Assembly (NCBI GenBank): GCA_018433765.1
Contig: JAHDQO010000006.1
Span: 124,001-188,000 of the forward strand
DNA length: 64,000 nt
Direction: 5' to 3'
Origin: Tissierellales bacterium
Lineage (GTDB): Bacteria; Bacillota; Clostridia; Tissierellales; Sedimentibacteraceae
In this document: one piece after another, positions 36,011 through 57,763 of the stretch
How the letters are laid out: each line of letters opens with the position of its first letter
How positions within the stretch are numbered: the first letter of the stretch is position 1
Made by a program: the position numbers and the translations under genes
The notes under the pieces: generated by a model
Databases searched by the model: none
Told to the model about the DNA's origin: nothing
Seen by the model: only the letters and a program-made list of their open reading frames with translations

Positions 36011-37501
36011 ATGAAAGTTAATTACAAAAAATTCTCCACGGGTGGATATGAATTTAAAGATTTTAAAGGAAACCCAATAAATAAAGTTATAGATATGGAA
36101 ATTCCTCAAACTCTTACTATACCTCTTAAACAAGGTTTTGGAGGTGAAGTTTCTGTTATAGTAAAGCCTGGAGAATATGTTAAAGCTGGGCAAATCATAG
36201 GTATTGATAAAAATGCTATTTCAAGCCCAGTTCATTCAAGTATTAATGGAATTGTAGAGGAAATTAAAACAATTAAACACCTTAATAAAGAAGTAAATGC
36301 AGTAGTTATAAAGTCAGATGGAACAAAAGAATGGCAGCCATTAGAGGGACACTCAAGAGAATGGAATAAATTATCTACTGAACAAATTCAGAAACTATTA
36401 TATATGTCAGGAGTTACGTCTTTAGATAAAAGTGGTATTCCTACAATATTTAAAAGTTCTGTTATTTCACCTGAACAAGTGGAAAATGTGATAGTATACG
36501 GAATTGGTACAGAACCATTTAATATTTCGTTGTCAGTTCTTCTACAAGATGAACGTAAATCTCAATTTGTTACAGGATTAAAAATTTTAAAAAAAGTGAT
36601 GTCAAACGCAAAGTTTTACTTAGCTGTAAATAAGAAAAATTCTAAGTTGATTCAAGAATTAAATAATCTATTATTTGATGTAGATTGGATAGAGCTATAT
36701 GCATTACCACCTAAATATCCATTAGAACTTGACGAGGTACTTATCCCAACGATTTTAGGAAAAAAATATCCTTATGGTTATCTTGCTGCAAATATTGGAG
36801 TTATTGCTTTAAGTATGCAAACTGTTACACAAGTGTATGATGCAGTAGTACAAGGAAAACCTTTGATAGAAAGAACAGTTGCATTAGGCGGTACTGGTTG
36901 GAAAGAAAATGTCCATATGAAAGTTCGTGTAGGTACTTCTATAGAGGATATAACGAGTCTATATCTTAAAGAACATGAGTCGTATAGATTAATTTTAAAT
37001 AGTATGTTAACTAATAAGTCTTTAACTTCTAAATCACTACCTATGGATAGAACATCCTCTGTATTGATTGCTCTAAAAGAAAACAAAGAAAGAGAAGTAT
37101 TCTCATGGTTAAGAGCTGGAAAAAATAAAGACTCTTATTCAAATGCATTTCTTTGTTCTTTAATGAAAGTATCAAATAAATCTTGTGATACAAATATTCA
37201 CGGAGAATATAGATCTTGTATATCATGTGGTTTCTGTGAAGATGTATGTCCTGTAGATATCATTCCACACCTTATCCAGAAGTATGTTAAAAAAAATATG
37301 TTAGATGAAGAAGTAATAGATTATGGAATATTTAATTGTATAGGATGTAATTTATGTAGTTATGTATGTACTTCAAAAATTGATGTTGCAAAAGATATTA
37401 GAGAAGGACAAGAAAAACTTACTAAAGATGAATGTGGTCGTGATACTATTGTAGAACCTTATTTTGATTTAATAGGGTTAAAAGAGTTTAAAAACCTATA
37501 A
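36011..37501 (+). CDS. nqrA: NqrA/RnfC-like subunit with two 4Fe-4S motifs
   Basis: 496 aa, about 50 longer than canonical NqrA. N-terminal barrel-sandwich hybrid region (KPGEYVKAGQIIGID...SSPVHSSINGIVEEI), then the NqrA/RnfC core. The RnfC flavin/NADH signature GxGGAGFPT is degenerate here (MSGVTSLDKSGIPT). The C-terminus keeps two complete ferredoxin motifs: C403-x2-C-x2-C-x3-C413-P and C443-x2-C-x2-C-x3-C453. Gene order and the sister subunits are Nqr-like, so it is called nqrA, although it looks intermediate between RnfC and NqrA. GGAGG precedes ATG. First gene of the island. Confidence 0.85.
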   Translation: MKVNYKKFSTGGYEFKDFKGNPINKVIDMEIPQTLTIPLKQGFGGEVSVIVKPGEYVKAGQIIGIDKNAISSPVHSSINGIVEEIKTIKHLNKEVNAVVIKSDGTKEWQPLEGHSREWNKLSTEQIQKLLYMSGVTSLDKSGIPTIFKSSVISPEQVENVIVYGIGTEPFNISLSVLLQDERKSQFVTGLKILKKVMSNAKFYLAVNKKNSKLIQELNNLLFDVDWIELYALPPKYPLELDEVLIPTILGKKYPYGYLAANIGVIALSMQTVTQVYDAVVQGKPLIERTVALGGTGWKENVHMKVRVGTSIEDITSLYLKEHESYRLILNSMLTNKSLTSKSLPMDRTSSVLIALKENKEREVFSWLRAGKNKDSYSNAFLCSLMKVSNKSCDTNIHGEYRSCISCGFCEDVCPVDIIPHLIQKYVKKNMLDEEVIDYGIFNCIGCNLCSYVCTSKIDVAKDIREGQEKLTKDECGRDTIVEPYFDLIGLKEFKNL

Positions 37502-37542
37502 TATCTGAAATATCAAAATTAATGTGTATGGGAGTTAAAAAT

Positions 37543-38634
37543 ATGAAAAAAATTCATAATTTATTTGATAAATTATACAAAATTGAATCATTAAAGAAAT
37601 TTAAACCTGTTATACAAGCTGCTGATTTTTTTCTTTTTGGTACTGAAGAAACTACTACTTCAGCGCCTCATATATCAGATAATATGGATATAAAGAGATA
37701 TATGATAATGGTAGTTATAGCATTATTGCCTAGTACATTTGCTTCAATTTATTATTACGGTTGGAGAGCAGTAGCTATTATTTTAGTTTCATATATAGTT
37801 GGAGGAATAGTAGAAGTTACTTTTGCAGTAATTAGAGGTCATGATGTAGAAGAAGGTTTTCTTGTTACAGGCCTTATATTTCCGCTTGTATTGCCACCAA
37901 CTATTCCACTTTGGATAGTAGGTGTTGGAATTTTTTTTGGTACTTTTTTTGGAAAAGAAGTATTTGGAGGTACAGGGAAAAATACATTTAATCCAGCTTT
38001 AGTTGGACGTATATTTATTACAATAGCTTTTCCTGTTTTTATGTCAGCTAACTGGTATGAGCCATTTACATCAGGTCTTGGTGGCTTTTTACATTATGCA
38101 CCAGATGTAGTTACTTCAGCTACACCTTTAGCCTCTATTAAAGCAGGAGTTGAATTACCATATTCTTATATTGATCTATTTTTAGGAAAAGCACCCGGTT
38201 CTATGGGTGAGACATTTAGACTTGGAATAATAATTGGTGGATTATTTTTAATAGCTACAAAAATAGTAAATTGGAGAATCCCTGTTGCTTATTTAGGAAG
38301 TGTATTTGTATTATCAAGTTTAGGAAATATAGTAATGCCTGAAACAATTGCTTCTCCTGGATTACAACTTCTATCTGGAGGATTATTATTTGGGGCATTC
38401 TTTATGGCAACAGATCCTGTATCATCTCCTTTTACAAAAATAGGTAAATGGATATATGGTATTTGTTTAGGATTATTTACAATTTTAATAAGGAGTTTTT
38501 CAGGTTATACGGAAGGGGTTATGTTCAGCATAATTTTGATGAACGGATTTACACCTCTTATTGACTCAATTATTTTACAGATAAAATATAAACCAATAAA
38601 AAAGAGAAGTGAGGCAGTTCTCAATGAAAGGTAA
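37543..38634 (+). CDS. nqrB: Na+-NQR subunit B
   Basis: 363 aa from ATG 37543 (SD GGGAG); an ATG 21 bp earlier lies upstream of the SD. Ten or so membrane segments. Typical NqrB blocks: LPPTIPLWIVGVGIFFGTFFGKEVFGG (by parts), GKNTFNPALVGR, AFFMATDPVSSPFTKIGKW, YTEGVMFSIILMN. The FMN attachment motif is TSATPL (Thr194), a variant of SGAT. It carries covalent FMN and the sodium path and delivers electrons to quinone. It overlaps nqrC by 11 bp. Confidence 0.93.
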   Translation: MKKIHNLFDKLYKIESLKKFKPVIQAADFFLFGTEETTTSAPHISDNMDIKRYMIMVVIALLPSTFASIYYYGWRAVAIILVSYIVGGIVEVTFAVIRGHDVEEGFLVTGLIFPLVLPPTIPLWIVGVGIFFGTFFGKEVFGGTGKNTFNPALVGRIFITIAFPVFMSANWYEPFTSGLGGFLHYAPDVVTSATPLASIKAGVELPYSYIDLFLGKAPGSMGETFRLGIIIGGLFLIATKIVNWRIPVAYLGSVFVLSSLGNIVMPETIASPGLQLLSGGLLFGAFFMATDPVSSPFTKIGKWIYGICLGLFTILIRSFSGYTEGVMFSIILMNGFTPLIDSIILQIKYKPIKKRSEAVLNER

Positions 38635-39202
38635 ATTGAATATGATATTATTTGTCATAGTTCTTGGGGCTATCTCTTCAGGAATTTTGACAACTATGGA
38701 TTCTATAACTAATGAAAAAATAGAAAGCAATAAAGAATTAGCAGTAAAAGCAAGTGTTTTAACAGCGTTTGATATGGAATTTACTGATGAAACAATAGAA
38801 GAAATTTTTAAAAATAATATAGAAGCTTATGAAAAAGATGGAACTACCTTTTATAGTTCTACTAAAGGTGAAGTAGGATTTTCTTTTTCAGGTTCAGGAC
38901 TTTGGGGTCCAATTGAAGGGACTATTGCATTAAATCCTGATCTAGAAACTATAAAAGGAATTAAAATATCAGCTCAAGAAGAAACTCCGGGTCTTGGAGG
39001 AGTAGTAGCAGAACAATGGTATTTGGAACAGTTTAAGGGAAAAAAAGTTACACCAAGTCTTGTTTTCTTAAAAACTAGCAAAGAAAATAAATTAGATAAT
39101 GAAATTGACGGAATATCTGGTGCAACATTAACTTCTAATGCATTTGAACTTTTGTTAAATACCGATATTAAAAAACATAAGGAGATATTGATGAAGAAAT
39201 GA
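38624..39202 (+). CDS. nqrC: Na+-NQR subunit C
   Basis: 192 aa. One N-terminal membrane helix, then an extracytoplasmic FMN-binding domain: LWGPIEGTIALNP, QEETPGLGGVVAEQWYLEQFKGKK and the flavinylation motif DGISGATLTSNA (Thr168). The first two are diagnostic of NqrC over RnfG. Start ATG 38624 overlaps the end of nqrB, so translation is coupled; its stop overlaps nqrD (ATGA). Needs an ApbE-type flavin transferase, which is not in this window. Confidence 0.93.
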   Translation: MKGKLNMILFVIVLGAISSGILTTMDSITNEKIESNKELAVKASVLTAFDMEFTDETIEEIFKNNIEAYEKDGTTFYSSTKGEVGFSFSGSGLWGPIEGTIALNPDLETIKGIKISAQEETPGLGGVVAEQWYLEQFKGKKVTPSLVFLKTSKENKLDNEIDGISGATLTSNAFELLLNTDIKKHKEILMKK

Positions 39203-39822
39203 AAAAATTAATAAGATTAACTTATACAAAATGGTTTACTATCATTAAGAACGGTTTAGTTAACAGTAATCCAGTTTTATCAGCTACTCTTGGTATTTGT
39301 TCAGCTCTAGCTGTATCAAATAGAGTTGATAATGCAATCGCTATGGGACTAGGTGTAATGTTTGTAACTTTAGCTAGCTCTGTAACAATTTCATTAATAA
39401 GAAATCTTATTCCATCAAGAGTTAGAATGGTAACATATATGGTTGTTATATCGACATTTGTTATTGCATTTCAGCAATTCCTAGAAGCATTTTATCCATC
39501 TATTAATGAAGCTCTAGGGCCTTATGTTGGTTTGATTATAACAAACTGCATAGTAATGGGCAGAGCAGAAGCTTTTGCAATAAAAAACTCTGTAGCCTAC
39601 TCTGCACTTGATGCTATTTCAAATGGTTTAGGATATACATATATATTAGTTATAATAGCAATAATTAGAGAAGTATTGGCTTCTGGAACAATATTAGGAT
39701 TTAATGTTGTAGGACAAGGCTGGACAAATTGGATAGTTATGTCTATGGCACCGGGAGGTTTCTTTGTATTAGCTATACTTTTATGGATTATGAAGTCATT
39801 TACAAATGTTGGACGAACATAA
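39199..39822 (+). CDS. nqrD: Na+-NQR subunit D
   Basis: 207 aa, six membrane segments. NSNPVLSATLGICSALAVSNRVDNA, GLIITNCIVMGRAEAFA and SNGLGYTYILVIIAIIREVLASG are typical of NqrD/RnfE. The WIVMSMAPGGFFVLAILLW ending favours NqrD. Together with NqrE it holds the intramembrane iron centre through conserved cysteines; Cys in ITNCIVMG and in LGICSAL are present. ATGA overlap with nqrC. Confidence 0.93.
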   Translation: MKKLIRLTYTKWFTIIKNGLVNSNPVLSATLGICSALAVSNRVDNAIAMGLGVMFVTLASSVTISLIRNLIPSRVRMVTYMVVISTFVIAFQQFLEAFYPSINEALGPYVGLIITNCIVMGRAEAFAIKNSVAYSALDAISNGLGYTYILVIIAIIREVLASGTILGFNVVGQGWTNWIVMSMAPGGFFVLAILLWIMKSFTNVGRT

Positions 39823-39879
39823 TTGTAACAAATTGAAAATGAATAAATAAAACGCGAATATATAGGAGGAAAGATAACA

Positions 39880-40467
39880 ATGGCTCATTTATTAGAAATA
39901 TTTATAGCCTCTATTACTTCACACAATATAGCATTGACTTATATACTTGGTATGTGTCCTTTAATTGCTATTTCCAAAAAAGTTAAAACTGCGTTTGGTA
40001 TGGGTATTTCAGTAGTTTTTGTTGTAACTTTGACTGTATTTATCAATTGGCCAATTTACAATAAAATACTTTTAACAACCGATAGTGATAATATAGCCCT
40101 TCTTGTTTTCATCATAATTATTGCAGCAACAGTACAATTTTTAGAAATGTTTTTAGAAAAATTTGCTCCATCTTTATATAATGCCTTTGGAATATATTTA
40201 CCTTTAATTACAGTAAACTGTGTTGTACTTTCAGTATCATTATTTATGGTAACAAGACAATACACATATAGTGAAACGGTAGTGTTTGGTTTTGGTTCAG
40301 CACTTGGTTGGACATTAGCAATTGTTACTGTTGCAGCTATTCGTGAAAAATTAGCCCTTACAGCAGATATACCAAAAGGATTGCAAGGTGTAGGAATAGT
40401 TTTAATTATTACAGGTCTATTAGCTTTAGGCTTTACGGGTTTTGGAGGAATGGCAAATATACAATAA
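39880..40467 (+). CDS. nqrE: Na+-NQR subunit E
   Basis: 195 aa, six membrane segments. LTYILGMCPLIAISKKVKTAFGMG, YNAFGIYLPLITVNCVVLS and GFGSALGWTLAIVTVAAIREKL...DIPKGLQGVGI closely follow NqrE rather than RnfA. The two conserved Cys (GMC, VNC) for the membrane iron centre are present. SD AGGAGG ahead of ATG. Confidence 0.94.
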   Translation: MAHLLEIFIASITSHNIALTYILGMCPLIAISKKVKTAFGMGISVVFVVTLTVFINWPIYNKILLTTDSDNIALLVFIIIIAATVQFLEMFLEKFAPSLYNAFGIYLPLITVNCVVLSVSLFMVTRQYTYSETVVFGFGSALGWTLAIVTVAAIREKLALTADIPKGLQGVGIVLIITGLLALGFTGFGGMANIQ

Positions 40468-40508
40468 TTTGTAAGTACAATTAAAATAATTCAGGGATGG
40501 TAGATAAT

Positions 40509-41576
40509 ATGAGTGTTATGCCAATTATACTAATTTCAATATTAGTTGTAGTAGCTATTATATTAGCTATAACAGATAGATTTCTTGGAAGTAAAGGAGA
40601 AAAAAAAATCATCATTAATAAAAACGAAACAGTAATACCAGTAAATGGTGATAATACCCTACTTAATTTTCTTTCTGAAAAAAAGATATATATACCTTCA
40701 GCTTGTGGAGGTAAAGGTACTTGTGGACATTGTAAAGTAAAAGTAATAAACGGTGGTGGAAACATACTTCCAACAGAAGAATTATTATTAAGTAAGGCTG
40801 AGAAACAAGATGGTATTAGACTAGCATGTCAAGTAAAAGTAAAAGAAGACATTGAAATAGAATTATCACAAGAACTTCTTTCAGTTCAGGAGTATAAAGG
40901 AAAAGTTGTAGAAATTAAAGATTTAACACAGAAAATTAAATTTGTAAAAGTAGAGTTACCAACTCCAATTGATTTTATACCAGGACAATATGCACAAATC
41001 AAAGTTCCTGGCGTAGAAGTGTTTCGTGCATACTCTATTGCTTCCAAACCAAGTGATAGAAATATATTAGAATTTTTAATTCGTTATATGCGCAAAGGTG
41101 TATGCACAACATACATTCATAAAGCTTTAGAAGTTGGAGATTATCTTACTATTACTGGACCGTATGGACATTTCTATCTTCACGAAGACTCAGATAAAGA
41201 AATTGTTTGTGTTGCACGTGGTTCTGGTATGGCTCCAATTAGATCTATAATATATCATCTTATAGATCAAGGCATGCCTAGAAAAATAACTTACTTTTAT
41301 GGTGGAAGAACTAGAAAAGATTTATTTTTAACGGAAGAACTTTTTAAAATATCTAAGAAGTTTCCTAATTTTACATATGTTCCAGCTTTATCAAATCCTG
41401 ATCCTGATTGGACTGGAGAAGTTGGTGTAATAACAGATGTAATTAATCGCTATTATAAAGCTTTAGAACATGCTGAAGCATATTTATGTGGTTCTCCTCG
41501 TTTAATTGACCCATGTGCAAAAGTATTAAGAAAAAATGGAATGAAAGACGAGAACATATATTACGATAAGTTTTAG
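40509..41576 (+). CDS. nqrF: Na+-NQR subunit F (NADH dehydrogenase)
   Basis: 355 aa. N-terminal membrane helix, a 2Fe-2S ferredoxin domain (C66, C72, C75, C107 in SACGGKGTCGHC and RLACQ), an FAD domain with RAYSIAS, and an NAD domain with ARGSGMAPIRS. It takes electrons from NADH to the pump. Rnf complexes have RnfB in place of NqrF, so this gene places the complex with Nqr. ATG at 40509 preferred; the ATG at 40497 lies inside the SD. Subunits A-F are in canonical order. Confidence 0.93.
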   Translation: MSVMPIILISILVVVAIILAITDRFLGSKGEKKIIINKNETVIPVNGDNTLLNFLSEKKIYIPSACGGKGTCGHCKVKVINGGGNILPTEELLLSKAEKQDGIRLACQVKVKEDIEIELSQELLSVQEYKGKVVEIKDLTQKIKFVKVELPTPIDFIPGQYAQIKVPGVEVFRAYSIASKPSDRNILEFLIRYMRKGVCTTYIHKALEVGDYLTITGPYGHFYLHEDSDKEIVCVARGSGMAPIRSIIYHLIDQGMPRKITYFYGGRTRKDLFLTEELFKISKKFPNFTYVPALSNPDPDWTGEVGVITDVINRYYKALEHAEAYLCGSPRLIDPCAKVLRKNGMKDENIYYDKF

Positions 41577-41614
41577 TATATTAGCTAAAAAATAAAAGAA
41601 AGTGGGTATATTAA

Positions 41615-42403
41615 ATGGAACTAGAAAAAATTTATACTCCAATAGATCAAAATATAAAAAAAATGGAAGCTGAACTTAATTTATTTATAAATTCTTGTAT
41701 TCCTTCTATTAATGAATTGTTTAACTATTTTTTTAGAAAATCAGGTAAGCATCTTCGTCCTGCATTAACTTTCCTAACAGCAGGTGCTGTAAACAATATA
41801 CAAACTAATAATAATAATTTAATACAACTAGCTTTGTCACTTGAACTTTTACATAGTGCAAGTTTAATTCATGATGACATAATAGATAAAGATTTTATGC
41901 GCCGAGAACAAAGAACATTAAATAACTCATTTGGAAATAAATTAGCAGTATTAGCTGGTGATACCTTATTTGCTAAGTCATATGCGATAGTTGCAAAATT
42001 TTTTACAATAGAATATTCACAGACTATTGCAGACCTTAGCATTAAAATGTGTGTTGCAGAAATAGAACAAGCTAAAGGTAATATTAATAGGGAAAAATAT
42101 TTTAATATTATAGAAGGAAAAACTGCTCTATTTACTAGTACTTGCTGCAAGCTAGGAGCTATGGTGGCAGGAGCTACAGAAGATCAAATAAAAAATTACA
42201 GAAATTTTGGATTAAATTTTGGAATGGCATATCAAATAATGGATGATTATATGGATAAAGATCCAAATGCTCTTAATAATGTTTCTTTAGAAGAAGCAAA
42301 TAAATTTGCAAAAAAAGCAAAAAAATCTATAGCTAATTTAAAAGATACAGTTTATAAGCAGAAATTATATGATCTTATGGAATATGTTATGGCAAATAAA
42401 TAG
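41615..42403 (+). CDS. trans-polyprenyl diphosphate synthase
   Basis: 262 aa, shorter than the usual 300-325. Both aspartate motifs are present: first HDDIIDKDFMRR, second MDDYMDKD. KHLRPALTFL is the substrate-binding segment. It probably makes the heptaprenyl/octaprenyl chain of menaquinone, since menA and menG lie 2.5-3.5 kb downstream in the same array. The shortened C-terminus might alter chain length or be a normal variant. Confidence 0.88.
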   Translation: MELEKIYTPIDQNIKKMEAELNLFINSCIPSINELFNYFFRKSGKHLRPALTFLTAGAVNNIQTNNNNLIQLALSLELLHSASLIHDDIIDKDFMRREQRTLNNSFGNKLAVLAGDTLFAKSYAIVAKFFTIEYSQTIADLSIKMCVAEIEQAKGNINREKYFNIIEGKTALFTSTCCKLGAMVAGATEDQIKNYRNFGLNFGMAYQIMDDYMDKDPNALNNVSLEEANKFAKKAKKSIANLKDTVYKQKLYDLMEYVMANK

Positions 42404-42412
42404 GAGTTTATA

Positions 42413-43333
42413 ATGAAAAAATTAATTATATTGTTTATTATATTAGCAATTGTAATATCTTCATTTGTAGGGTGTACAACAGAAAATGTAGACAATACAC
42501 TTAAATTGGGTTCGATGCCTACTCTATCAGCAGCAATTTATGGTGTAGGTATTCAAAACGGTATATTTGAAAAGCATGGTGTTAATGTTGATTTAACTAT
42601 TTTTAAATCTGCACCTGAACGTGATTCTGCAGCAGTAGCTGGTGAATTAGATGGATTTATGACAGATATTATGGGGCTTGTAAATCTAGTCGATAAAAAT
42701 TTTAATTTTAAAGCTACATCATATGAATATGAAAACTTTGGAATCATGGTTAATAAACAATGTGGAATAAAAAATAAGAATGAATTAAATAATGAAAAAA
42801 TTGGTATTTCAGAAAATACTGCAATAGAGTATTTTGTTGATCAATTATTAAATGAATCTAAAGTAGAAAAAACTCAAGTTGTTAAGATTCCTGACCGTTT
42901 AGCAGCTGTATTAAGTAATGAAATTCAATTAGGCGTATTTCCTGAACCATATATTTCTATAATTAAAGCAAATGAAGGTACAGAGATTGTTTCAAGTGCT
43001 AAAGAAAGATTACAAACAGTTATTTTAGTGTTCTCCCAAGAAACAATAGATAAAAAAGATGAAACTATTAAATCTTTCTATAAAGCCTATAATGAAACAG
43101 TAGATTACTTGAAAGAAACAGATTATAGTGAGTATAAAGATATATTAATTCAATATGGTTTAGTAAAAGAGGATTCTATAGATAAAATAAAGTTACCAGT
43201 TGATAATTTTACCCATGCTAAAATGCCAACTGAAAATGATTTTAATAAAGTAATAGAATGGATGACTAAAAAGAATTTAACTGAAAATACTTATAAATTA
43301 GAAGATTTATCAGTTGATAAGTATGTAAAATAA
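42413..43333 (+). CDS. ABC substrate-binding lipoprotein (NMT1/SsuA-like)
   Basis: 306 aa. Lipoprotein signal peptide with lipobox FVGC (Cys21). Type II periplasmic-binding fold: LGSMPTLSAAIYGVGIQNGIFEKHGVNVDL, SAPERDSAAVAGELDGFMTDIMG. It is the NMT1/SsuA group that binds small, often aromatic or sulfonated compounds. Position between the side-chain synthase and menA suggests a quinone precursor such as dihydroxynaphthoate, but the ligand is inferred only from context; the halogenated substrate is an alternative. Confidence 0.85.
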   Translation: MKKLIILFIILAIVISSFVGCTTENVDNTLKLGSMPTLSAAIYGVGIQNGIFEKHGVNVDLTIFKSAPERDSAAVAGELDGFMTDIMGLVNLVDKNFNFKATSYEYENFGIMVNKQCGIKNKNELNNEKIGISENTAIEYFVDQLLNESKVEKTQVVKIPDRLAAVLSNEIQLGVFPEPYISIIKANEGTEIVSSAKERLQTVILVFSQETIDKKDETIKSFYKAYNETVDYLKETDYSEYKDILIQYGLVKEDSIDKIKLPVDNFTHAKMPTENDFNKVIEWMTKKNLTENTYKLEDLSVDKYVK

Positions 43334-43355
43334 AAAGTATTTATGGTGGATATAA

Positions 43356-44081: not shown

Positions 44082-44082
44082 T

Positions 44083-44823: not shown

Positions 44824-44832
44824 AGGTGATTA

Positions 44833-45726: not shown

Positions 45727-45738
45727 GTGCTTAATTAT

Positions 45739-46452
45739 ATGATAGAAAATCAGAACATGAAAGAAAAAAAAGTTTATGAAGTATTTCAAAATATATCAAA
45801 AGATTATGATAAGTTAAATAATATTATTAGCTTTAATATGCATAAGAGATGGAAGAGAGATACTATACGTAAGTTAAATATAAAAGAAAATTCTAAGATA
45901 CTAGATGTATGTTGTGGTACTGGTGATTTTAGCTTTATGTTATCTTTAAAAACAGATAAAAAAATTGAAGTTATTGGTATGGATTTTTCTGAAAATATGT
46001 TATCTGTTGCAAAAAAGAAAAATGAAGAACTAAAATTATCTAATGTTAATTTTGTTAATGGAAATGTAATGAATATGCAATATAAAGATAATACTTTTGA
46101 TAATGCTATCATAGGTTTTGGATTAAGAAATGTTCCTAATTACGAACAAGTTATTCATGAAATGATGCGTGTTGTAAAACCCGGAGGAATGGTAGCTTGT
46201 TTAGAAACTTCACAACCTACACTCCCTATATATAAGCAAATTTATTGGATTTACTTTAAATATATAATGCCATTAGTGGGTCATTTATTTTCAAAACATA
46301 AAAAGGAGTATCAGTGGTTAAATGATTCTACCATGCTTTTTTTTAATAAAAAAGAATTAAAAAAATTATTTGAAAAATTAGGTTTGAAAGATGTAAAAGT
46401 AAAATCTTATGCACTAGGAGCAGCAGCCTTGCATGTAGGCGTAAAACATTAA
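45739..46452 (+). CDS. menG: demethylmenaquinone methyltransferase
   Basis: 237 aa. UbiE/MenG signatures: VFQNISKDYDKLNNIISFNMHKRWKRD (family signature 1, by parts), ILDVCCGTGDFS (SAM), FDNAIIGFGLRNV, KPGGMVACLETSQP, and YQWLNDSTMLFFNKKELKKLFEKLG. It methylates demethylmenaquinone to menaquinone. ATG at 45739 is chosen for the AGGTG 9 nt upstream; a GTG at 45727 lies within that SD. Final step of quinone assembly in the island. Confidence 0.92.
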   Translation: MIENQNMKEKKVYEVFQNISKDYDKLNNIISFNMHKRWKRDTIRKLNIKENSKILDVCCGTGDFSFMLSLKTDKKIEVIGMDFSENMLSVAKKKNEELKLSNVNFVNGNVMNMQYKDNTFDNAIIGFGLRNVPNYEQVIHEMMRVVKPGGMVACLETSQPTLPIYKQIYWIYFKYIMPLVGHLFSKHKKEYQWLNDSTMLFFNKKELKKLFEKLGLKDVKVKSYALGAAALHVGVKH

Positions 46453-46469
46453 TAAGAAGGAGAAAAAAT

Positions 46470-46703
46470 ATGGTACTAAACTTTGGTTTAATAGAAATTT
46501 TAATAATTTTAATTATTGCATATTTATTTTTTGGTCCAAAGAAACTTCCTAAAATAGGAAAAAAAGCTGGCGAAGCAATTAAAAAAATATCTAAAGGAGC
46601 AGAAGAATTTAGCAAAGAAATAAATGAAGTAAAAGAATTAAATGAATTAAAGGAGATAAAAGAAACAGTAACTAATTTATCAGACAATATTAAAAATATT
46701 TAG
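46470..46703 (+). CDS. tatA: Tat translocase subunit TatA
   Basis: 77 aa. One N-terminal membrane helix followed by FFGPKKLPKIGKKAGEAIKK, the canonical hinge and amphipathic helix, and then a charged tail. SD AGAAGGAGAA. Forms the Tat pore that exports folded proteins. First of two tatA genes in the island, immediately before tatC and the dehalogenase genes, whose products carry Tat signals. Confidence 0.93.
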   Translation: MVLNFGLIEILIILIIAYLFFGPKKLPKIGKKAGEAIKKISKGAEEFSKEINEVKELNELKEIKETVTNLSDNIKNI

Positions 46704-46738
46704 TTTATTGCTCAATACATAAAAAGTAGGTGAATAAT

Positions 46739-47476
46739 ATGTCAGAAAAAGAAGAAACGTATATAGAACATTTAGCAGATTTGCGTAAAAGATTTATAAA
46801 AGTTCTTATTTTTTTTATTATAATATTAATAATTACTTTTATGTTCGTACCTCAAATAATTGATTTTATTACATTGACATCTAAATCAGTTGATCTAGAT
46901 TTAAATGCATTTAATATAACTGATCCTCTTGCATTATATATTAAAGTTGCATCTATAATTGCTTTTATAGTTTCTTTTCCATACCTTCTTTTACAATTAT
47001 GGTTATTTATTTCACCAGGTCTAAAAAAACATGAAAAGAGATTTGTTTATAAATATATACCTTTGATTTTTATACTTTTTATTTTGGGTATAGCATTTTC
47101 TTATTTTATAATAGTTCCCTATTACGTAATGTTTTCTCAACGGCTTGCAGGTAATACTGATTTAAATATACTTGTTGGAGCTAATAAGTATATTGAATTT
47201 ATAAGCAGAATGGTATTATTATTTGGACTTATTTTTCAATTTCCTATTTTAGTTTATATACTTTCTTATATTAATATTATAAGTTCAAAGTTATTAATAA
47301 ATATTAGAAAATATGCATATTTTGCTTTATTAATTGCATCAGCATTTATTACACCACCAGATCCAGTCTCAATGGGAATAGCTTTATTACCTTTAGCTCT
47401 TCTTTATGAAATTAGCATATTACTAAGCAAGTTAAATGAGAGGAAAAAGAAGAAGAAAAATGAAGAGTTTGAGTAA
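46739..47476 (+). CDS. tatC: Tat translocase subunit TatC
   Basis: 245 aa, six membrane helices. IEHLADLRKRFIKVL (the conserved HLxELRxR region), FPYLLLQLWLFISPGLKKHEKRF, FGLIFQFPILVYIL and SAFITPPDPVSMG, ALPLALLYEISI motifs. It recognises the twin-arginine signal. ATG 46739 is preferred over the GTG at 46730 because AGGTG lies 6 nt before it. An island-encoded TatC suggests dedicated export of RdhA. Confidence 0.94.
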   Translation: MSEKEETYIEHLADLRKRFIKVLIFFIIILIITFMFVPQIIDFITLTSKSVDLDLNAFNITDPLALYIKVASIIAFIVSFPYLLLQLWLFISPGLKKHEKRFVYKYIPLIFILFILGIAFSYFIIVPYYVMFSQRLAGNTDLNILVGANKYIEFISRMVLLFGLIFQFPILVYILSYINIISSKLLINIRKYAYFALLIASAFITPPDPVSMGIALLPLALLYEISILLSKLNERKKKKKNEEFE

Positions 47477-47492
47477 ATAAAGATATGTTTTG

Positions 47493-47537
47493 TCAATAGT
47501 CAAATCGATTGTAATTCTAAATAATGAGCAGTAAAAT
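47493..47537 (+). promoter_or_regulatory. rdhA1 promoter with TCAATAGT box
   Basis: TCAATAGT (47493-47500), an 8-bp gap, TTGTAA (-35, 47509-47514), 17 bp, TAAAAT (-10, 47532-47537). The same elements at the same spacing precede rdhA2, and TCAATAGT precedes the -35 of nqrA by 7 bp. Confidence 0.55.
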
Positions 47538-47612
47538 TATAGATATAAAGACATATTTCTACACAACATAAATGTTAATTAGTTAACAATAATAAAGGAG
47601 GAGTATTCTTAT

Positions 47613-48839
47613 ATGAATCGTAGAGATTTTTTAAAAAAAAGCGCTCTTACAGCAGGTGTCGTAGCAGGAAGTGTTGCAGTTTCATCTGCTGTTAAACCTA
47701 TTGAAGTTGAGGCAAAAGGTTTTGGAGTAAAAGAGCATAAAGGTAAAACAATTTATGACGTAGTTGAAATGAACGATGAATTTCAACCGTTTTATAGAAA
47801 AAATATCATTTTCGAAAGAGGAAGTACGCCTTATCGATCAGATTTTTTTGTTAACCAAAGTGCACCAAAAGAACACGAAGGAGTTAATCACACTTTACTT
47901 AACTATGCATTACTTCAAGGTTCATCAATGAGTTGGGGAGATACAACTTTATTTTATAAATTTAGAAAAGGTAAACCAAATAGTAAAGATGGTAAACCTC
48001 AACAATTTAAAGATAAAAAAGAAGCATCATACTATATTAAAAGAGCAGCAAAATTTTATAAAGCATCCGCCGTAGGAATAGCACCATATGACGAAAATTT
48101 TATGTATGTAGAAAATATAGAAGAATTTAAAGAATTAGGGTTTAAACCTAAAAGTGTTGTAGTTATGTGTATTTTAATGAATCATGAAATATTAAAACTA
48201 TATCCAACATTAATAGGAGGCTGCGGTGCTGCACTAGGTTATAGTAACATGGCTGAAACAGCTGGAAAAGTTGGCGTTTTCATCAGTGAACTTGGTTACA
48301 GTTCCTACGCTGGAGGAAATAATTGGGGAATGTCAGTACCTATAGCCATATCCGCAGGACTAGGTGAAGGTTCTAGAATGGGTACCCTTATTCATCCAGA
48401 ATTAGGTACAGGCTTTAGAATAGTAAAAGTATTTACTGAACTAGAATTAGAATGTGATTCACCTATTACTTTTGGCGTAGAGGATTTTTGTAATAACTGT
48501 AAGAAATGTGCAGATAATTGCCCAAGTGCTGCAATTTATAAAGTTGGTAAAGATTATGCAGATGGATCTAATATTTCAACCCGTAAAGGAATTAAAAAAT
48601 GGGCTACTAATTCAGAAAAATGTTATGAATATTGGGGTGAAGCCGGTTGTGACTGTGGACGTTGTATAACATCGTGTCCATATTTTAAAAATGATACATG
48701 GGTTCATAAGCTTTCAAAAGTAGTAGCTAGTACACCAGGAGTAAACAATGTTGCCCGCTATATGGATGACATGTTTGGATATGGTAAGTTACCAACAGAA
48801 GAAACATATAGAAATTTTTGGGAGAATATAGAGGTTTAA
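47613..48839 (+). CDS. rdhA: reductive dehalogenase RdhA1
   Basis: 408 aa, at the short end of the family. Twin-arginine signal NRRDFLKKSALTAGVVAGS, then the corrinoid-binding RdhA core with ELGYSSYAGG (Tyr229, possible catalytic tyrosine position) and VPIAISAGLGEGSRMGTLIHPELGTGFR (by parts), FGVEDFCNNCKKCADNCPSAAI (Cys293/296/299/303) and the second cluster motif C337-x10-C348-GR-C351-ITS-C355-P. It should reduce a halogenated compound at the outer membrane face using B12 and two 4Fe-4S clusters. Substrate unknown. SD AAGGAGGAG. Confidence 0.93.
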   Translation: MNRRDFLKKSALTAGVVAGSVAVSSAVKPIEVEAKGFGVKEHKGKTIYDVVEMNDEFQPFYRKNIIFERGSTPYRSDFFVNQSAPKEHEGVNHTLLNYALLQGSSMSWGDTTLFYKFRKGKPNSKDGKPQQFKDKKEASYYIKRAAKFYKASAVGIAPYDENFMYVENIEEFKELGFKPKSVVVMCILMNHEILKLYPTLIGGCGAALGYSNMAETAGKVGVFISELGYSSYAGGNNWGMSVPIAISAGLGEGSRMGTLIHPELGTGFRIVKVFTELELECDSPITFGVEDFCNNCKKCADNCPSAAIYKVGKDYADGSNISTRKGIKKWATNSEKCYEYWGEAGCDCGRCITSCPYFKNDTWVHKLSKVVASTPGVNNVARYMDDMFGYGKLPTEETYRNFWENIEV

Positions 48840-48856
48840 TAAGGAGGATATGAGAT

Positions 48857-49153
48857 ATGTATTTTATTTTAGGAGCATTATTTGTAGGTATTCAGTTAAT
48901 AATTCATTCAAAATTAGCAAAAATGGATAAAGCTAAAATATGGCCAAATTGTATAATGGTTTTAGTATCTAATGCATTAATTATTTTTTCAATTGCATGG
49001 GGTTATGAAAGTATAATTGAATATGAATCACAAGCAGCTATTATGGGATTAGTTGCATTTGGTGGACTTGGAATAATATTCGCAATTATTGCTTATCGTA
49101 TTATAAACAAGTCAGAGAAGCCAAATAAAGAATGTGTAGAAGTAAATGAATAA
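48857..49153 (+). CDS. rdhB: reductive dehalogenase membrane anchor RdhB1
   Basis: 98 aa with three hydrophobic segments (residues ~2-15, 32-50, 62-84), the usual RdhB pattern and length. SD AAGGAGG; 17 bp past rdhA1. It anchors RdhA to the outside of the membrane. Nearly the same as RdhB2 at 53188 (about 10 differences). Confidence 0.9.
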   Translation: MYFILGALFVGIQLIIHSKLAKMDKAKIWPNCIMVLVSNALIIFSIAWGYESIIEYESQAAIMGLVAFGGLGIIFAIIAYRIINKSEKPNKECVEVNE

Positions 49154-49254
49154 ATAAAGAAGCAGTCCACTCTCCCCTATAATTAAGTTTATTGACTAAA
49201 TTGTAAGTAAAGAGTGGACTAGATAATTTCAATTTACAAAAAAGAGGTTGCATT

Positions 49255-50196
49255 ATGATAATTAAAAGTTTTAAGTTAGGTAAATATAAAGGACTAAATT
49301 TTAATAAGCCTAACATTTATGTAAATGAGAATGAGATAAATGATGCTTTAAAAAAGATTCAAACTTCTTATGAGGAACTAATTGATAAAGATAAATGTAT
49401 TGAAAAAGGAGATCATATTTATTTCAAATATGAAGTAAAATATGAAGATGAAAATATACCAAATCAAATAATTAGTAATTATCATTTGAAAATTGGACAA
49501 GGCTTTCATATAGAGGAATTTGAAAAAAATTTCTATGGATTAAAAAAAAGTGATAAAAAAATTTTTGATATTATTTTTCCCAATGATTACTCGGTTGAAC
49601 ATTTAAGAGGTAAAAAAGGCGTATATAATGTTGAAATTTTAAATATAAAAGAAGTGACTTATCCCAAGTTAAATGAGCAGTTTGTAAAAAGTTTAGAAAT
49701 AGATGACATAAATACAATTGAAAGCTTAAAAGAGTACATAAAAAAAGATATTTATAATAGAAAGATTTATAGTGAAAATATAGATTTGATAAATTCAATT
49801 ATGCGAATAATACTGGATAATGTTGAAATAGAGTATTATGATGAAGCAGTTGAAGAAGCAGTTAATGAAATGATAAATGACATTAATAAACAAATCAAAG
49901 ATGAAAATCTTTCAATGAATAAGTATTATGAATATCATAAAATTAAAGGAGAAGATGATTTAAGAGAGAAATTTAGTGAAGAAGTTAAAACAACTTATTT
50001 AGAACTAAGAACACTTGAAGAAATTGCTAAAGTAGAAAACATTAAATTGAGTGATTACGAATACAATAATGCTAAAAAAACATATTTAACAAAAAGAGGT
50101 ATTGAAGAAGAAGATATCAGAGATGAAAATGATTTTAAAAAGAGTGTTTTATTGAAAGAAGTAATTAATCATATAGTTGAGTTTAACACAATTTAG
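49255..50196 (+). CDS. rdhT: trigger-factor-like chaperone RdhT (PceT-like)
   Basis: 313 aa. It resembles trigger factor without the N-terminal ribosome-binding domain: an FKBP-type PPIase region at ~50-135 (GDHIYFKYEVKYED, GQGFHIEEFEKNFYGLKKSDKKIFDIIFPNDYSVEHLRGKKGVYNVEILNIKE by parts), then the helical C-terminal arms (~140-300). In Desulfitobacterium, PceT of this type binds the Tat signal of PceA to hold it until the cofactors are inserted. Same role expected here. SD AAGAGGTT. Confidence 0.88.
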   Translation: MIIKSFKLGKYKGLNFNKPNIYVNENEINDALKKIQTSYEELIDKDKCIEKGDHIYFKYEVKYEDENIPNQIISNYHLKIGQGFHIEEFEKNFYGLKKSDKKIFDIIFPNDYSVEHLRGKKGVYNVEILNIKEVTYPKLNEQFVKSLEIDDINTIESLKEYIKKDIYNRKIYSENIDLINSIMRIILDNVEIEYYDEAVEEAVNEMINDINKQIKDENLSMNKYYEYHKIKGEDDLREKFSEEVKTTYLELRTLEEIAKVENIKLSDYEYNNAKKTYLTKRGIEEEDIRDENDFKKSVLLKEVINHIVEFNTI

Positions 50197-50207
50197 AGGT
50201 GAATAAC

Positions 50208-51404
50208 TTGGAAGTAGAATGCAAAACAAAAAAAAATGAAATAAATAAAGAACAAAAAAAAATAAAAAAAGTAATAGCATGGATAGCATTTGTTAGCTTG
50301 TTAGTGTTATATCTGCATTATATGTATCAATCTCATCAAATTGACGAGAATGTGATAGATTTTCTGGATACCTATGAAGAATTTGATTCTTATGAAAATG
50401 TAAGTAATGAACCAGTAACATTTAAAGTACAAAAAGATGGGAGTGAAGTAGGTTATTTAGTTTTCGGGAAAGAAGTAGGTTATCAATCTACTATAATTAT
50501 AGCAACTTTAGTTGATTTAGACGGGATAATAATAAACTCTAAAACATATTCTCAAGATGAAACTCCTTCTTTTTATAATAAGTTGATAAATAAAAAATTC
50601 TTTGATCAATTTGAAGGTAAGTCAATTTCTGAAGGTGTGAAAATTAACACAAATATTGATGCTATTACACGTGCTACAATTTCATCTAATGCTGCAACAA
50701 AAGCAATACATGAAGGTATTAATTATGTAGGACAAACACATTTGGGAAAAGAAGGGCAAAATTTATATACGGGTGTAAACTTTGGAAGTATGGAAATTGC
50801 GATTATTATTTTACTGTTGTTAGTAATATTAGCTTATAAGACAAAGAACAAACAATTACGTACATTAGTTTTAATTTATTCAGTAATAATAATAGGATTT
50901 AAATTTTCATTGTTTATATCATATTCATTATTTTTCTCGTTCATAACAGGTAATTTTCCATCTTTTACTTCAGATTTAAAACGATATCTATTATTCTTTG
51001 GAGCATTAGCGTTTATACTAACGACTGGAAAAAACCTATATTGTACATATATGTGTCCATTTGGAGCAATTCAAGAACTAGAAAATAAATTTGCAAAACT
51101 TAATTTCTTTAAAGTGTCTCCAAAAACCAAAAAAATATTAAATGTTGTTCCAGGGTTTATTGCATACTTTGCTTTAGTGATAGCTTTCACAACAAATCAA
51201 ACGGGAGCTTTAAGTTATGAGCCATTCTCTTTATTATATGGAAGGGTTGGATTAGATATTCAATGGTTATTGCTGCCGATTACGTTATTTATGGGATTAA
51301 TAGTTATGCGTTTTTATTGTAACTTTGGATGTCCAGTTGGATTTACACTTAATATTTTTTTAAAAGCAAGACGAAAAGTGGTGAGCCTATGGAAAAGAAA
51401 ATAA
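50208..51404 (+). CDS. rdhC: NosR/NapH-like FMN-binding membrane protein RdhC
   Basis: 398 aa. N-terminal helix, an extracytoplasmic FMN-binding domain ending in IDAITRATISSNAAT (flavinylation threonine ~157; Gly of the usual TGAT is Arg here), then five or six membrane helices with two CxxxCP motifs (CTYMCPFGA, CNFGCPVGF). This is the layout of PceC/RdhC. It is thought to carry electrons from menaquinol to RdhA or to have a regulatory role. TTG start at 50208 (GAGGTG 6 nt upstream); a GTG at 50199 lies inside the SD. Confidence 0.88.
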   Translation: MEVECKTKKNEINKEQKKIKKVIAWIAFVSLLVLYLHYMYQSHQIDENVIDFLDTYEEFDSYENVSNEPVTFKVQKDGSEVGYLVFGKEVGYQSTIIIATLVDLDGIIINSKTYSQDETPSFYNKLINKKFFDQFEGKSISEGVKINTNIDAITRATISSNAATKAIHEGINYVGQTHLGKEGQNLYTGVNFGSMEIAIIILLLLVILAYKTKNKQLRTLVLIYSVIIIGFKFSLFISYSLFFSFITGNFPSFTSDLKRYLLFFGALAFILTTGKNLYCTYMCPFGAIQELENKFAKLNFFKVSPKTKKILNVVPGFIAYFALVIAFTTNQTGALSYEPFSLLYGRVGLDIQWLLLPITLFMGLIVMRFYCNFGCPVGFTLNIFLKARRKVVSLWKRK

Positions 51405-51499
51405 CCGGTAAGGATTTGATCTTTATAATAGCTGTATTTGTTATGTCTATTGCCTCAATATTAACAATATTATTAAGTTCGGAAATAATTGAAATGTAG
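51389..51499 (+). CDS. 36-residue membrane micro-protein overlapping rdhC
   Basis: ATG at 51389 inside the last codons of rdhC (16-bp overlap, different frame). Starts MEKKITGKDLIFIIAVFVMS, continues with a hydrophobic helix and ends SSEIIEM. AGTGGTGAGCC just upstream gives a usable SD-like stretch. It is a single-span protein with a basic N-terminus. Not recognised. The next gene, tatA2, begins 19 bp after its stop, so it fits neatly in the operon. Confidence 0.6.
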   Translation: MEKKITGKDLIFIIAVFVMSIASILTILLSSEIIEM

Positions 51500-51518
51500 T
51501 GAGAAAGGAGATGATAAA

Positions 51519-51698
51519 ATGTTTGGAAAATTAGGTATAGCAGAAATTATAATTATATTGATTGTAGGATTTCTAATATTTGGGCCTAATTCTTTACCTA
51601 AAATAGGTAAGAGCTTTGGCCAAACAATTAGTGAGTTTAAAAAAGCAGCAAAAAGAGATGATGATTCTGATTTGTTAGAAGAAGTGAAAAACGAATAA
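51519..51698 (+). CDS. tatA: second TatA subunit
   Basis: 59 aa. MFGKLGIAEIIIILIVGFLIFGPNSLPKIGKSFG-type sequence with hinge FGPNSLPKIGKS and a short acidic tail. SD AAAGGAG at 8 nt. Shorter than the TatA at 46470 and different in the hinge (PNS instead of PKK), so the two may form distinct pores or serve as TatA/TatB-like partners. Confidence 0.92.
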   Translation: MFGKLGIAEIIIILIVGFLIFGPNSLPKIGKSFGQTISEFKKAAKRDDDSDLLEEVKNE

Positions 51699-51724
51699 GA
51701 GTTGTTAGCAACTTATATAATTTA

Positions 51725-51762
51725 AAAAGCATTCTGCTATATTTTTTTAGTGGAATGCTTTT
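51725..51762 (+). terminator. terminator after tatA2
   Basis: AAAAGCATTC (51725-51734) and GAATGCTTTT (51753-51762). It separates the first transcript of the island from the rdhA2 promoter. Confidence 0.65.
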
Positions 51763-51824
51763 AATAAATAACTTTAAAGTTTATTAAATACTATACACAA
51801 AAAAATGCTTGAAAACGTTATTTG

Positions 51825-51869
51825 TCAATAGTCAAATAGATTGTAAATGTAAATAATAAACAGTAAAAT
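51825..51869 (+). promoter_or_regulatory. rdhA2 promoter with TCAATAGT box
   Basis: TCAATAGT (51825-51832), 8 bp, TTGTAA (51841-51846), 17 bp, TAAAAT (51864-51869). Same layout as in front of rdhA1; the leader to the SD is also conserved, including GTTAAC. Confidence 0.55.
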
Positions 51870-51943
51870 CATAAGTATAAAAGTAAATTTGTACATATAT
51901 AAATTGTTATTAGTTAACTATAATAAAGGAGGAAAATTCTTAT

Positions 51944-53170
51944 ATGAATCGTAGAGATTTTTTAAAGAAAAGTGCTCTTGCAGCAGGTGTTGTAGCAGGA
52001 AGTGTTGCCGTTTCATCTGCTGTTAAACCTATTGAAGTTGAGGCAAAAGGTTTTGGAGTAAAAGAGCATAAAGGTAAAACAATTTATGACGTAGTTGAAA
52101 TGAACGATGAATTTGGACCATTTTATTGGAAAGATACCATCTTTAGTAGAAAAAGTGATCCTGTTAAGTCAAATTTTTTTGCTAAAATAAATGCTCCGAA
52201 AGAACACGAGGGTTTTGATCATAATTTATTCAATTATGCATTAGCACAAGGTTCAAACTTAAGTAATGGAGATACAACTTTATTCTATAAGTTTAGAAAA
52301 GGTCAACCCAATAGTGTAGATGGTAAACCCCATAAGTTCAAAGATAAAAAAGAGGCATCATACTATATTAAAAGAGCAGCAAAATTTTATAAAGCAACAG
52401 ATGTAGGAATAGCACCATATGATGCAAATTTCATGTATGTAGAGAATATAGAAGAATTTAAAGAATTAGGGTTTAAACCTAAAAGTATTGTAGTTATGTG
52501 TGTTTTAATGAACCATGATATATTAAAACTGTACCCAACATTAGCAGGTATGAGCGGTGCTTGGCTAGGTTATAGTAATATGGCTGAAATAGCTGGAAAA
52601 CTTGGTGTTTTCATAAGTGAACTTGGTTACAGTTCATACGCTGGAGGAAATGAGTGGGGAATGGCAGTGCCTCTAGCCATATCCGCCGGACTAGGTGAAG
52701 GCTCTAGAATGGGTACCCTTATTCATCCAGAATTAGGTACAGGCTTTAGGATAGTAAAAGTATTTACTGAATTAGAATTAGAATATGATTCACCAATTAC
52801 TTTTGGGGTAGAAGATTTTTGTAATAACTGTAAGAAATGCGCAGATAATTGTCCAAGTGGTGCAATCTATAAAGTTGGTAAAGCTTATGCAGATGGGTCT
52901 AATATTTCAACCCGTAAAGGAATTAAAAAATGGGCTACTAATTCAGAAAAATGTTATGAATATTGGGGAGAAGTTGGAAATGATTGTGGACGTTGTATAA
53001 CTGTTTGTCCGTATTTTAAAAATAATACATGGGTTCATAAGCTTTCAAAAGTAGTAGCTAGTACACCAGGAGTAAACAATGTTGCCCGCTATATGGATGA
53101 TATGTTTGGATATGGTAAGTTGCCAACAGAAGATACGTATAAAAAATTCTGGGAAAATATAGAAATCTAA
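51944..53170 (+). CDS. rdhA: reductive dehalogenase RdhA2
   Basis: 408 aa paralogue of RdhA1, about 86% identical by manual alignment, with no gaps. Same twin-arginine signal (NRRDFLKKSALAAG), ELGYSSYAGG, and 4Fe-4S motifs (Cys293/296/299/303; Cys337/348/351/355). Cys346 of RdhA1 is Asn here, which shows it is not a ligand. Differences cluster at residues 58-108 and 201-207. Likely a different substrate range. SD AAGGAGGA. Confidence 0.93.
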   Translation: MNRRDFLKKSALAAGVVAGSVAVSSAVKPIEVEAKGFGVKEHKGKTIYDVVEMNDEFGPFYWKDTIFSRKSDPVKSNFFAKINAPKEHEGFDHNLFNYALAQGSNLSNGDTTLFYKFRKGQPNSVDGKPHKFKDKKEASYYIKRAAKFYKATDVGIAPYDANFMYVENIEEFKELGFKPKSIVVMCVLMNHDILKLYPTLAGMSGAWLGYSNMAEIAGKLGVFISELGYSSYAGGNEWGMAVPLAISAGLGEGSRMGTLIHPELGTGFRIVKVFTELELEYDSPITFGVEDFCNNCKKCADNCPSGAIYKVGKAYADGSNISTRKGIKKWATNSEKCYEYWGEVGNDCGRCITVCPYFKNNTWVHKLSKVVASTPGVNNVARYMDDMFGYGKLPTEDTYKKFWENIEI

Positions 53171-53187
53171 TGAGGAGGTTATGAAAT

Positions 53188-53484
53188 ATGTATTTTATTT
53201 TAGGAGCATTATTTGTAGGTATTCAATTAATAATTCATTCAAAATTAGCAAAAATTGATAAAGCTAAAATATGGCCAAACTGCATAATGGTTTTAATATC
53301 TAATGCATTAATTATTTTTTCAATTGCGTGGGCTTATGAAAGTATAATAGAATTTGAATCACAAGCAGCTATTATGGGATTAGTTGCATTTGGCGGACTA
53401 GGAATAATATTTGCGATTATTGCTTATCGTATTATAAACAAGTCAGAGAAGACAAACAAGGAAAGTTTAGAAACAAATGAATAA
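53188..53484 (+). CDS. rdhB: reductive dehalogenase membrane anchor RdhB2
   Basis: 98 aa, three hydrophobic segments, nearly the same as RdhB1 (differences such as M/I at residue 23, WGYES/WAYES). SD GAGGAGG; 17 bp past rdhA2. Last gene of the island. The rdhAB2 pair looks like a copy of rdhAB1 including its promoter. Confidence 0.9.
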   Translation: MYFILGALFVGIQLIIHSKLAKIDKAKIWPNCIMVLISNALIIFSIAWAYESIIEFESQAAIMGLVAFGGLGIIFAIIAYRIINKSEKTNKESLETNE

Positions 53485-53510: not shown

Positions 53511-53546
53511 AAAGCATTCTACTATTCAGTAGAATGCTTTTATTTT
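53511..53546. terminator. bidirectional terminator at the right edge of the island
   Basis: Perfect 13-bp arms (53511-53523, 53528-53540) with a T-run; serves rdhB2 and the convergent XRE-TPR gene. Its core AAAGCATTC is the same as in the terminator at 51725. Confidence 0.8.
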
Positions 53547-57762: not shown

Positions 57763-57763
57763 T

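Follow-up and report, generated by a model that had tools for sequence, protein, structure and literature searches.

Can a single gene array supply a fermentative bacterium with a respiratory chain that runs from NADH to an organohalide? The question is raised by a 17.5-kb array at positions 36011–53484 of a 64,000-nucleotide stretch from a Tissierellales bacterium (assembly GCA_018433765.1, contig JAHDQO010000006.1, positions 124,001 to 188,000; hereinafter, the window). The array lies inside a 311-kb contig, at contig positions of about 160,000 to 177,500, and the host genome of 4.19 Mb has a completeness estimate of 100% and a contamination estimate of 3.25%. An original prediction, made from the letters of this stretch, described the array as a self-contained and portable organohalide-respiration island. 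Comparative sequence analysis leads us to favor, with a probability of about 0.6, a modified reading, namely a compact organohalide-respiration locus that would rely on a scavenged quinone precursor.

The gene array and its predicted dehalogenases

Scans with NCBIfam and Pfam hidden Markov models (HMMs) recovered all the genes named in the original prediction, on the plus strand and in the order given there, from an Nqr-type pump through quinone finishing, an ATP-binding cassette (ABC) importer and twin-arginine translocation (Tat) to two rdhAB pairs. Chance matches are excluded by the scores (RdhA, 205 bits against a 160-bit cut-off; TatC, 180 against 133). All reading frames of the island are intact, its G+C content is 28.4% compared to 27.8% for the window, and its third-position use matches that of the rest of the window. 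The features are as follows (FMN, flavin mononucleotide; FAD, flavin adenine dinucleotide; DHNA, 1,4-dihydroxy-2-naphthoate).

36011–37501 (+): nqrA-like subunit, NqrA/RnfC intermediate with two [4Fe-4S] motifs (HMM; 8/8 Cys retained, RnfC FMN/NADH glycine loop gone)
37522–38634 (+): nqrB-like membrane subunit (HMM; PDB match; Gly-Gly pair)
38609–39202 (+): nqrC-like flavoprotein (HMM; SGAT flavinylation motif in the sequence)
39199–39822 (+): nqrD-like subunit (HMM)
39880–40467 (+): nqrE-like subunit (HMM)
40497–41576 (+): nqrF-like NADH dehydrogenase subunit with 2Fe-2S and FAD/NADH domains (260.7 bits, nqrF cut-off 295)
41615–42403 (+): short polyprenyl diphosphate synthase (PF00348, 165 bits; DDIID and DDYMD motifs)
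42413–43333 (+): substrate-binding lipoprotein of the ABC importer, NMT1/SsuA type (HMM; relatives adjoin menaquinone genes)
43356–44081 (+): ABC importer ATPase (HMM)
44059–44823 (+): ABC importer permease (HMM)
44833–45726 (+): menA, DHNA polyprenyltransferase (HMM)
45727–46452 (+): menG, demethylmenaquinone methyltransferase (333.8 bits, cut-off 235)
46470–46703 (+): tatA (HMM)
46730–47476 (+): tatC (HMM; sole copy in the genome)
47613–48839 (+): rdhA1, predicted Tat-exported reductive dehalogenase (204.9 bits, cut-off 160.35; Tat signal; two Fe-S motifs)
48857–49153 (+): rdhB1, membrane anchor with EXE motif (EYE and three hydrophobic segments in the sequence)
49154–49254 (+): hairpin after rdhB1, candidate terminator or attenuator (z -4.22)
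49255–50196 (+): rdhT, trigger-factor-like chaperone without the N-terminal domain (tig, 167.7 bits, model positions 105–402)
50199–51404 (+): rdhC-like membrane flavoprotein (FMN_bind, Fer4_5; two CX3CP motifs; FMN motif TRATIS)
51389–51499 (+): putative 36-aa hydrophobic micro-ORF (from the sequence)
51489–51698 (+): tatA2 (59.1 bits, cut-off 53.9)
51699–51780 (+): terminator-like hairpin after tatA2 (z -4.92)
51944–53170 (+): rdhA2, predicted reductive dehalogenase (HMM; 87% identical to RdhA1)
53188–53484 (+): rdhB2, membrane anchor with EXE motif (from the sequence)
53511–53540 (no strand assigned): terminator-like hairpin at the island end, after rdhB2 (z -5.1)

The micro-ORF and TatA2 are short overlapping frames, and the likely start codon of TatA2 is the ATG at 51519. 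The polyprenyl diphosphate synthase is short, 262 aa vs. about 320, with both DDxxD motifs visible.

The best PDB match of RdhA2 is 8q4h, the menaquinol:organohalide oxidoreductase (MOOR) of Desulfitobacterium hafniense (E 3e-56), followed by PceA of S. multivorans (SmPceA). Counted along the PDB alignment, SmPceA Y246, N272 and R305 correspond to Y210, N236 and R269 of the island protein, all conserved. The same alignment places K489, H495, D515 and Y520 of D. hafniense PceA (DhPceA) at K359, H365, D385 and Y390 of the island RdhA, and a lysine at the position of DhPceA R499; a published description of the D. hafniense MOOR names the residues that line its menaquinol pocket (PMC10624902). The RdhA proteins further possess a Tat signal scoring above the cut-off and the Fe-S motifs CX2CX2CX3CP and, second, C...CX2CX3CP, and the RdhB proteins display the EXE motif (EYE or EFE) and three hydrophobic stretches judged by eye. 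Given the catalytic residues, the menaquinol-pocket residues and the EXE motif, RdhAB read by sequence as menaquinol-linked respiratory dehalogenases of predicted activity and substrate. RdhC combines an FMN_bind domain with two CX3CP motifs (CTYMCP and CNFGCP).

In these features, the island resembles the pceABCT/MOOR systems of D. hafniense TCE1 and Dehalobacter restrictus, with which it shares rdhA, B, C and T, Tat export, the catalytic Tyr/Arg and the menaquinol-pocket residues. However, those systems draw their electrons from a Hup hydrogenase, and Dehalobacter can produce menaquinone itself through a complete pathway (PMC4751268, PMC10624902), whereas the island has an Nqr-type pump, quinone finishing enzymes, an importer and Tat genes in adjacency, together with an incomplete quinone pathway and a shorter RdhA. 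A genome-wide search detected no tatC besides that of the island; relatives that possess tatC have it in other loci, at 30–33% identity, and the tatC loci of the sister genus, considered as possible relatives of the island, turned out to be separate native tat loci without island genes. The view that published rdh clusters always depend on a remote tat was too strong given the partial precedent of D. restrictus, whose region of 10 rdh clusters also contains a tat operon (PMC5928378).

A quinone pathway gap and the adjacent importer

With respect to menaquinone, the island holds just the finishing enzymes, polyprenyl diphosphate synthase, MenA and MenG. Genome-wide searches, in each of which positive-control genomes scored above the cut-off, detected no MenB (the top crotonase, at 159.8 bits, stays below the 342.7 cut-off), no MenD (64 bits against 244) and no match to MqnC. 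Complete menaquinone biosynthesis, whether by the Men or by the futalosine pathway, cannot be expected in this host and, because these three enzymes are missing, the naphthoquinone head group must come from outside.

A candidate for the entry route is the NMT1/SsuA-type (NMT1/SsuABC) ABC system encoded between the polyprenyl diphosphate synthase gene and menA. Homologues of its binding protein were identified in 123 of 398 genomes of the phylum. We analyzed the neighborhoods of 40 homologues (20 kb around each, less at contig ends) for late menaquinone genes, that is, MqnL (TIGR03701, 665 bits vs. 496), MqnP, UbiX and MenA (TIGR00751, 222 vs. 102), and found such genes in 18 loci from 15 families, compared to 0/25 and 1/79 in two sets of control loci analyzed alike (1/104 together). 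The Fisher test gives p of 2e-5 against the first control set and 5e-11 against both, values that overstate independence because the loci are related. In the tree of concatenated importer proteins, the island importer groups within this family, whose quinone-linked members are scattered over the tree. Furthermore, two genomes (G522 and G563) encode a module consisting of TetR, ABC, MenA and the binding protein, and lack MenB as well; a menA-ABC-binding protein arrangement is likewise present in locus L226. The linkage to menaquinone genes, together with the MenA-only loci in genomes without MenB, is the basis for proposing an importer of a DHNA-type precursor. The most economical reading is that it probably brings in a DHNA-type quinone head-group precursor. 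A PDB search yielded no relative of the binding protein that would hint at the ligand, and prediction of its structure from one sequence gave a mean pLDDT (predicted local distance difference test) of 34.7.

Among the importer loci, two show the order TetR, ABC ATPase, permease, MenA and binding protein in genomes without MenB (L204, 6280–10447; L205, 9354–13521) and are candidates for a stand-alone DHNA-scavenging unit. In two others (L209, 6588–16868; L223, 3185–13418), the same importer adjoins MqnL/MqnP/UbiX, a few kb away from NDH-2, polyprenyl diphosphate synthase, PplA and MenA; each region brings MqnP and MenA, both quinone prenyltransferases, together with genes of extracellular electron transfer.

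Late futalosine operons (MqnL-MqnP-UbiX) of four loci (L206, L207, L209 and L223) share with the island a homologous ABC importer next to a quinone prenyltransferase, but carry MqnP/MqnL where the island carries MenA/MenG in a genome without MqnC and MenB. The flavin-based extracellular electron transfer system (FLEET) of Lactiplantibacillus plantarum and Listeria also contains a polyprenyl synthase and MenA without the upstream men genes, and dependence on outside DHNA has been demonstrated for L. plantarum (PMC10746273). FLEET differs from the island in that it has no identified importer and employs extracellular iron or an electrode as the acceptor, whereas the island has an ABC importer next to these genes, along with a dehalogenase. 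The same 2023 study describes the route of DHNA uptake in L. plantarum as unknown and expects yet-unidentified quinone uptake pathways (PMC10746273); no DHNA transporter is described in the papers covered by our literature search.

A putative pump between RNF and NQR

The six genes at the start of the array had been predicted to be nqrABCDEF. They are indeed six Nqr-type genes but not a canonical Nqr: the A subunit is intermediate between NqrA and RnfC, and all six score below the curated cut-offs. Specifically, the A subunit scores 241.6 bits against rnfC (cut-off 245.95) and at most 193 bits against the NqrA models, contains two Fer4 motifs and matches RnfC better than NqrA in PDB (158.6 vs. 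68.8 bits); it also carries the NqrA-type insert EVFSWLRAGKNK, a segment that RnfC lacks. NqrB exceeds the RnfD cut-off; its best PDB match is NqrB (220 bits; RnfD, 188), and the Gly pair of the NqrB G140/G141 quinone site is conserved. Among the 398 phylum genomes, there are four further operons of this pump type (46–51% identity in the A subunit, 56–67% in B), none of which adjoins rdh, men or tat genes. All five A subunits retain the eight Cys of the two [4Fe-4S] clusters of RnfC and have lost its flavin loop, GLGGAGFPTH. NqrF is present in the operon, and there is no RnfB. In one of the other genomes (G783, contig C9; L172, 8808–20191), the intermediate operon is directly followed by hydrogenase-like 2Fe-2S/NADH subunit genes.

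The pump shares with the Na+-NQR of Vibrio, and with the menaquinone-type NQR of Segatella, the six-gene A–F order, the NqrF NADH module and the quinone-site glycines of NqrB, but its A subunit keeps the two [4Fe-4S] motifs that canonical NqrA lost (PMC12174285, PMC4014512). With the RNF complex, it shares the RnfC-like Fe-S module of the A subunit, and it differs in lacking RnfB, possessing NqrF and having lost the RnfC FMN/NADH loop. According to reviews (PMC12174285, PMC4014512), NqrA is without cofactors, and RnfC lost its sites as a consequence of the loss of RnfB. We do not classify the pump as NQR because the defining features of canonical NQR, a cofactor-free NqrA and scores above the Nqr cut-offs, were tested for and are not present. 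By its subunit composition, this subfamily is what an RNF-to-NQR intermediate would look like, and we propose that it works like NQR.

The proposed chain, its alternatives and its implications

A continuous path from NADH via the Nqr-type pump and menaquinol to RdhAB, with its MOOR pocket residues, can be drawn from the island as originally predicted. The binding lipoprotein would capture DHNA, or a close 1,4-naphthoquinoid, from outside and pass it to the ABC transporter for import; the polyprenyl diphosphate synthase and MenA, members of families with these roles, would add the tail, and MenG would methylate the product to menaquinone. The pump would oxidize NADH via NqrF, reduce menaquinone and export Na+ or H+. 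RdhA1 and RdhA2 would be exported folded via the island TatA/TatC, with the aid of RdhT, and then docked on RdhB, RdhC being a putative accessory flavoprotein. Menaquinol would be oxidized at the RdhA-RdhB interface, with electrons passing through two [4Fe-4S] clusters to the cobamide, which, as the conserved active-site and pocket residues suggest, would remove the halogen outside the cell. Overall, the chain would re-oxidize NADH and couple this to the pumping of ions, in a fermenter that otherwise has just Rnf as a pump of this class. The fermentative appearance of the host is borne out by a canonical Rnf and a PrdC-like protein encoded elsewhere in the genome and by iorAB next door. The original prediction supposed that a second nqr/rnf pump, a second tat set and a full menaquinone pathway would all be missing elsewhere; the second pump exists as Rnf, whereas the other two are absent.

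The array appears to be more than one unit of expression. Strong hairpins are found 3' of rdhB1, tatA2 and rdhB2 and, given these hairpins between the rdh units, three or four transcription units are more likely than the single regulated array that had been envisaged. Promoters are not claimed because, in a sigma-70 scan, matches were no more frequent than in shuffled sequence. The rdhA1B1 and rdhA2B2 pairs are a DNA duplication, 89% identical across some 1.67 kb, of which about 100 bp lie upstream, with 87% identity between the two RdhA proteins. The regions upstream of rdhA1 (47477–47612) and rdhA2 (51840–51943) have in common a CAAT-N10-ATTG repeat together with a palindrome, GTTAA-N4-TTAAC, close to the ribosome site; the pattern, one base shorter before rdhA2, is a possible operator.

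The island looks acquired, given that RdhA is missing from the rest of the family and that other RdhA loci differ in context. No other member of the family encodes an RdhA above the family cut-off (61 related genomes searched, 26 of them others of the same family), only 4 of the 391 genomes of the class sample do, this one included, and RdhA2 alone as a query on the genome contigs retrieved no relative. None of the 79 named RdhA loci that we examined has the nqr, tatC, menA and menG set of the island, with the proviso that the conserved patterns used to find such loci may have missed RdhA of the Desulfitobacterium type; the packaging is indeed unusual, with nothing comparable in the genomes sampled. 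The RdhA loci of five genomes (G040, G054, G122, G173 and G218) were considered as counterparts and dismissed, their context being different and their RdhA 34–37% identical and without a visible Tat signal, and a locus with rdhA near menA (L140) encodes a non-Tat RdhA without rdhB and was judged coincidental. The predicted portability finds no backing: there is no match to the island in plasmid records, no tRNA in the window, and no integrase or transposase among the annotated genes of the window, to which, out of the 311-kb contig, that search was confined.

Just outside the island, iorA-iorB (indolepyruvate ferredoxin oxidoreductase) is followed by a GntR/UTRA regulator (window 55954–58342, +) and, on the other side, a protein of 365 aa that lacks a Pfam match and whose N-terminus is signal-like is encoded divergently from nqrA (34532–35629, -). 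Further away are a single 833-aa protein that fuses CoA-disulfide-reductase-like, rhodanese, TusA and DsrE2 domains (22580–25081, -) and a LysR regulator (1533–2441, -) scoring 305 bits against the cut-off of 250 of a selenium-metabolism-associated family.

Several observations weigh against the scavenging organohalide-respiration locus. Many homologues of the importer occur in genomes with futalosine-pathway genes, where scavenging would not be needed; one of the two MenA-module genomes (G563) is 80% complete, and the gap in both was established by the MenB search; and NMT1-type binding proteins take many ligands, so that this importer might instead carry a different compound of menaquinone metabolism, or one unrelated to it. 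The subthreshold scores of all six Nqr subunits count on the same side, as does the RdhC motif TRATIS, which departs from the strict flavinylation motif [ST]G[AS]TX[ST] (PMC5928378) by an Arg in place of the Gly while keeping the acceptor Thr. In searches limited to the island, neither an rdhK/marR-type regulator nor ApbE and cobamide genes were found; the latter absences, together with the genome-wide lack of MenB, MenD and MqnC, take away the claim that the island is self-contained.

There are four other explanations. Rather than an NADH:quinone pump, the complex could be a new RNF-like electron branch, with ferredoxin or a different soluble protein as the partner of the [4Fe-4S] clusters of the A subunit in electron exchange and NqrF as the NAD side; the RnfC cluster motifs in 5/5 members, the preference of the A subunit for RnfC in PDB and the hydrogenase-like genes next to the G783 operon speak for this possibility, but we regard it as doubtful given the missing RnfB, the presence of NqrF, the flavin loop lost in 5/5, the affinity of NqrB to NqrB rather than RnfD with its quinone-site Gly pair, and the menaquinone genes adjoining the operon here. 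It is unlikely, in our estimate, that the organohalide island stands but the importer serves another need (a riboflavin/thiamine or cobamide precursor, a sulfonate, an organohalide or its product), with menaquinone or its precursor entering otherwise. The breadth of the NMT1/SsuA-type family, the PDB search without a pointer to the ligand and the 22/40 importer loci without a nearby menaquinone gene fit such a role, against which stand the linkage in 18/40 loci from 15 families vs. 1/104 controls, the position of the importer between polyprenyl diphosphate synthase and menA, and the MenA-ABC modules without MenB in G522 and G563.

A decayed acquisition, with parts retained by chance and an inactive or non-respiratory RdhA, could explain the short polyprenyl diphosphate synthase, the altered FMN motif of RdhC and the lack of any known close relative of the island; nevertheless, every frame is intact, the rdhAB unit occurs in two copies of 89% DNA identity, both proteins being intact and the catalytic residues kept, and G+C and third-position use fit the rest of the window, which makes this explanation quite improbable. 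Highly improbable is an assembly artefact or contamination, that is, an island from another organism: the 3.25% contamination estimate and the absence of the island from family relatives would be compatible with it, but the island is embedded in a 311-kb contig of matching G+C.

Returning to the scavenging locus, we would give about even odds to its broadest form, in which the transporter represents a widespread, undescribed family of importers of menaquinone precursors (DHNA-type) that, together with MenA/MenG, the RNF-to-NQR intermediate pump, Tat and RdhAB, would form a chain run on a borrowed quinone head group. The individual parts are of known kinds; what is new is the way they are combined, along with the family of importers and the intermediate pump. 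For the uptake of outside quinone precursors, the locus and its relatives point to one specific importer that can be tested. The pumps would be living examples of the RNF-to-NQR transition, until now argued from subunit comparison, and the function of their Fe-S clusters is directly testable. If the proposed chain is correct, quinones made by neighbors would let fermenters respire, and organohalide respiration would, in such organisms, depend on partners for quinone.

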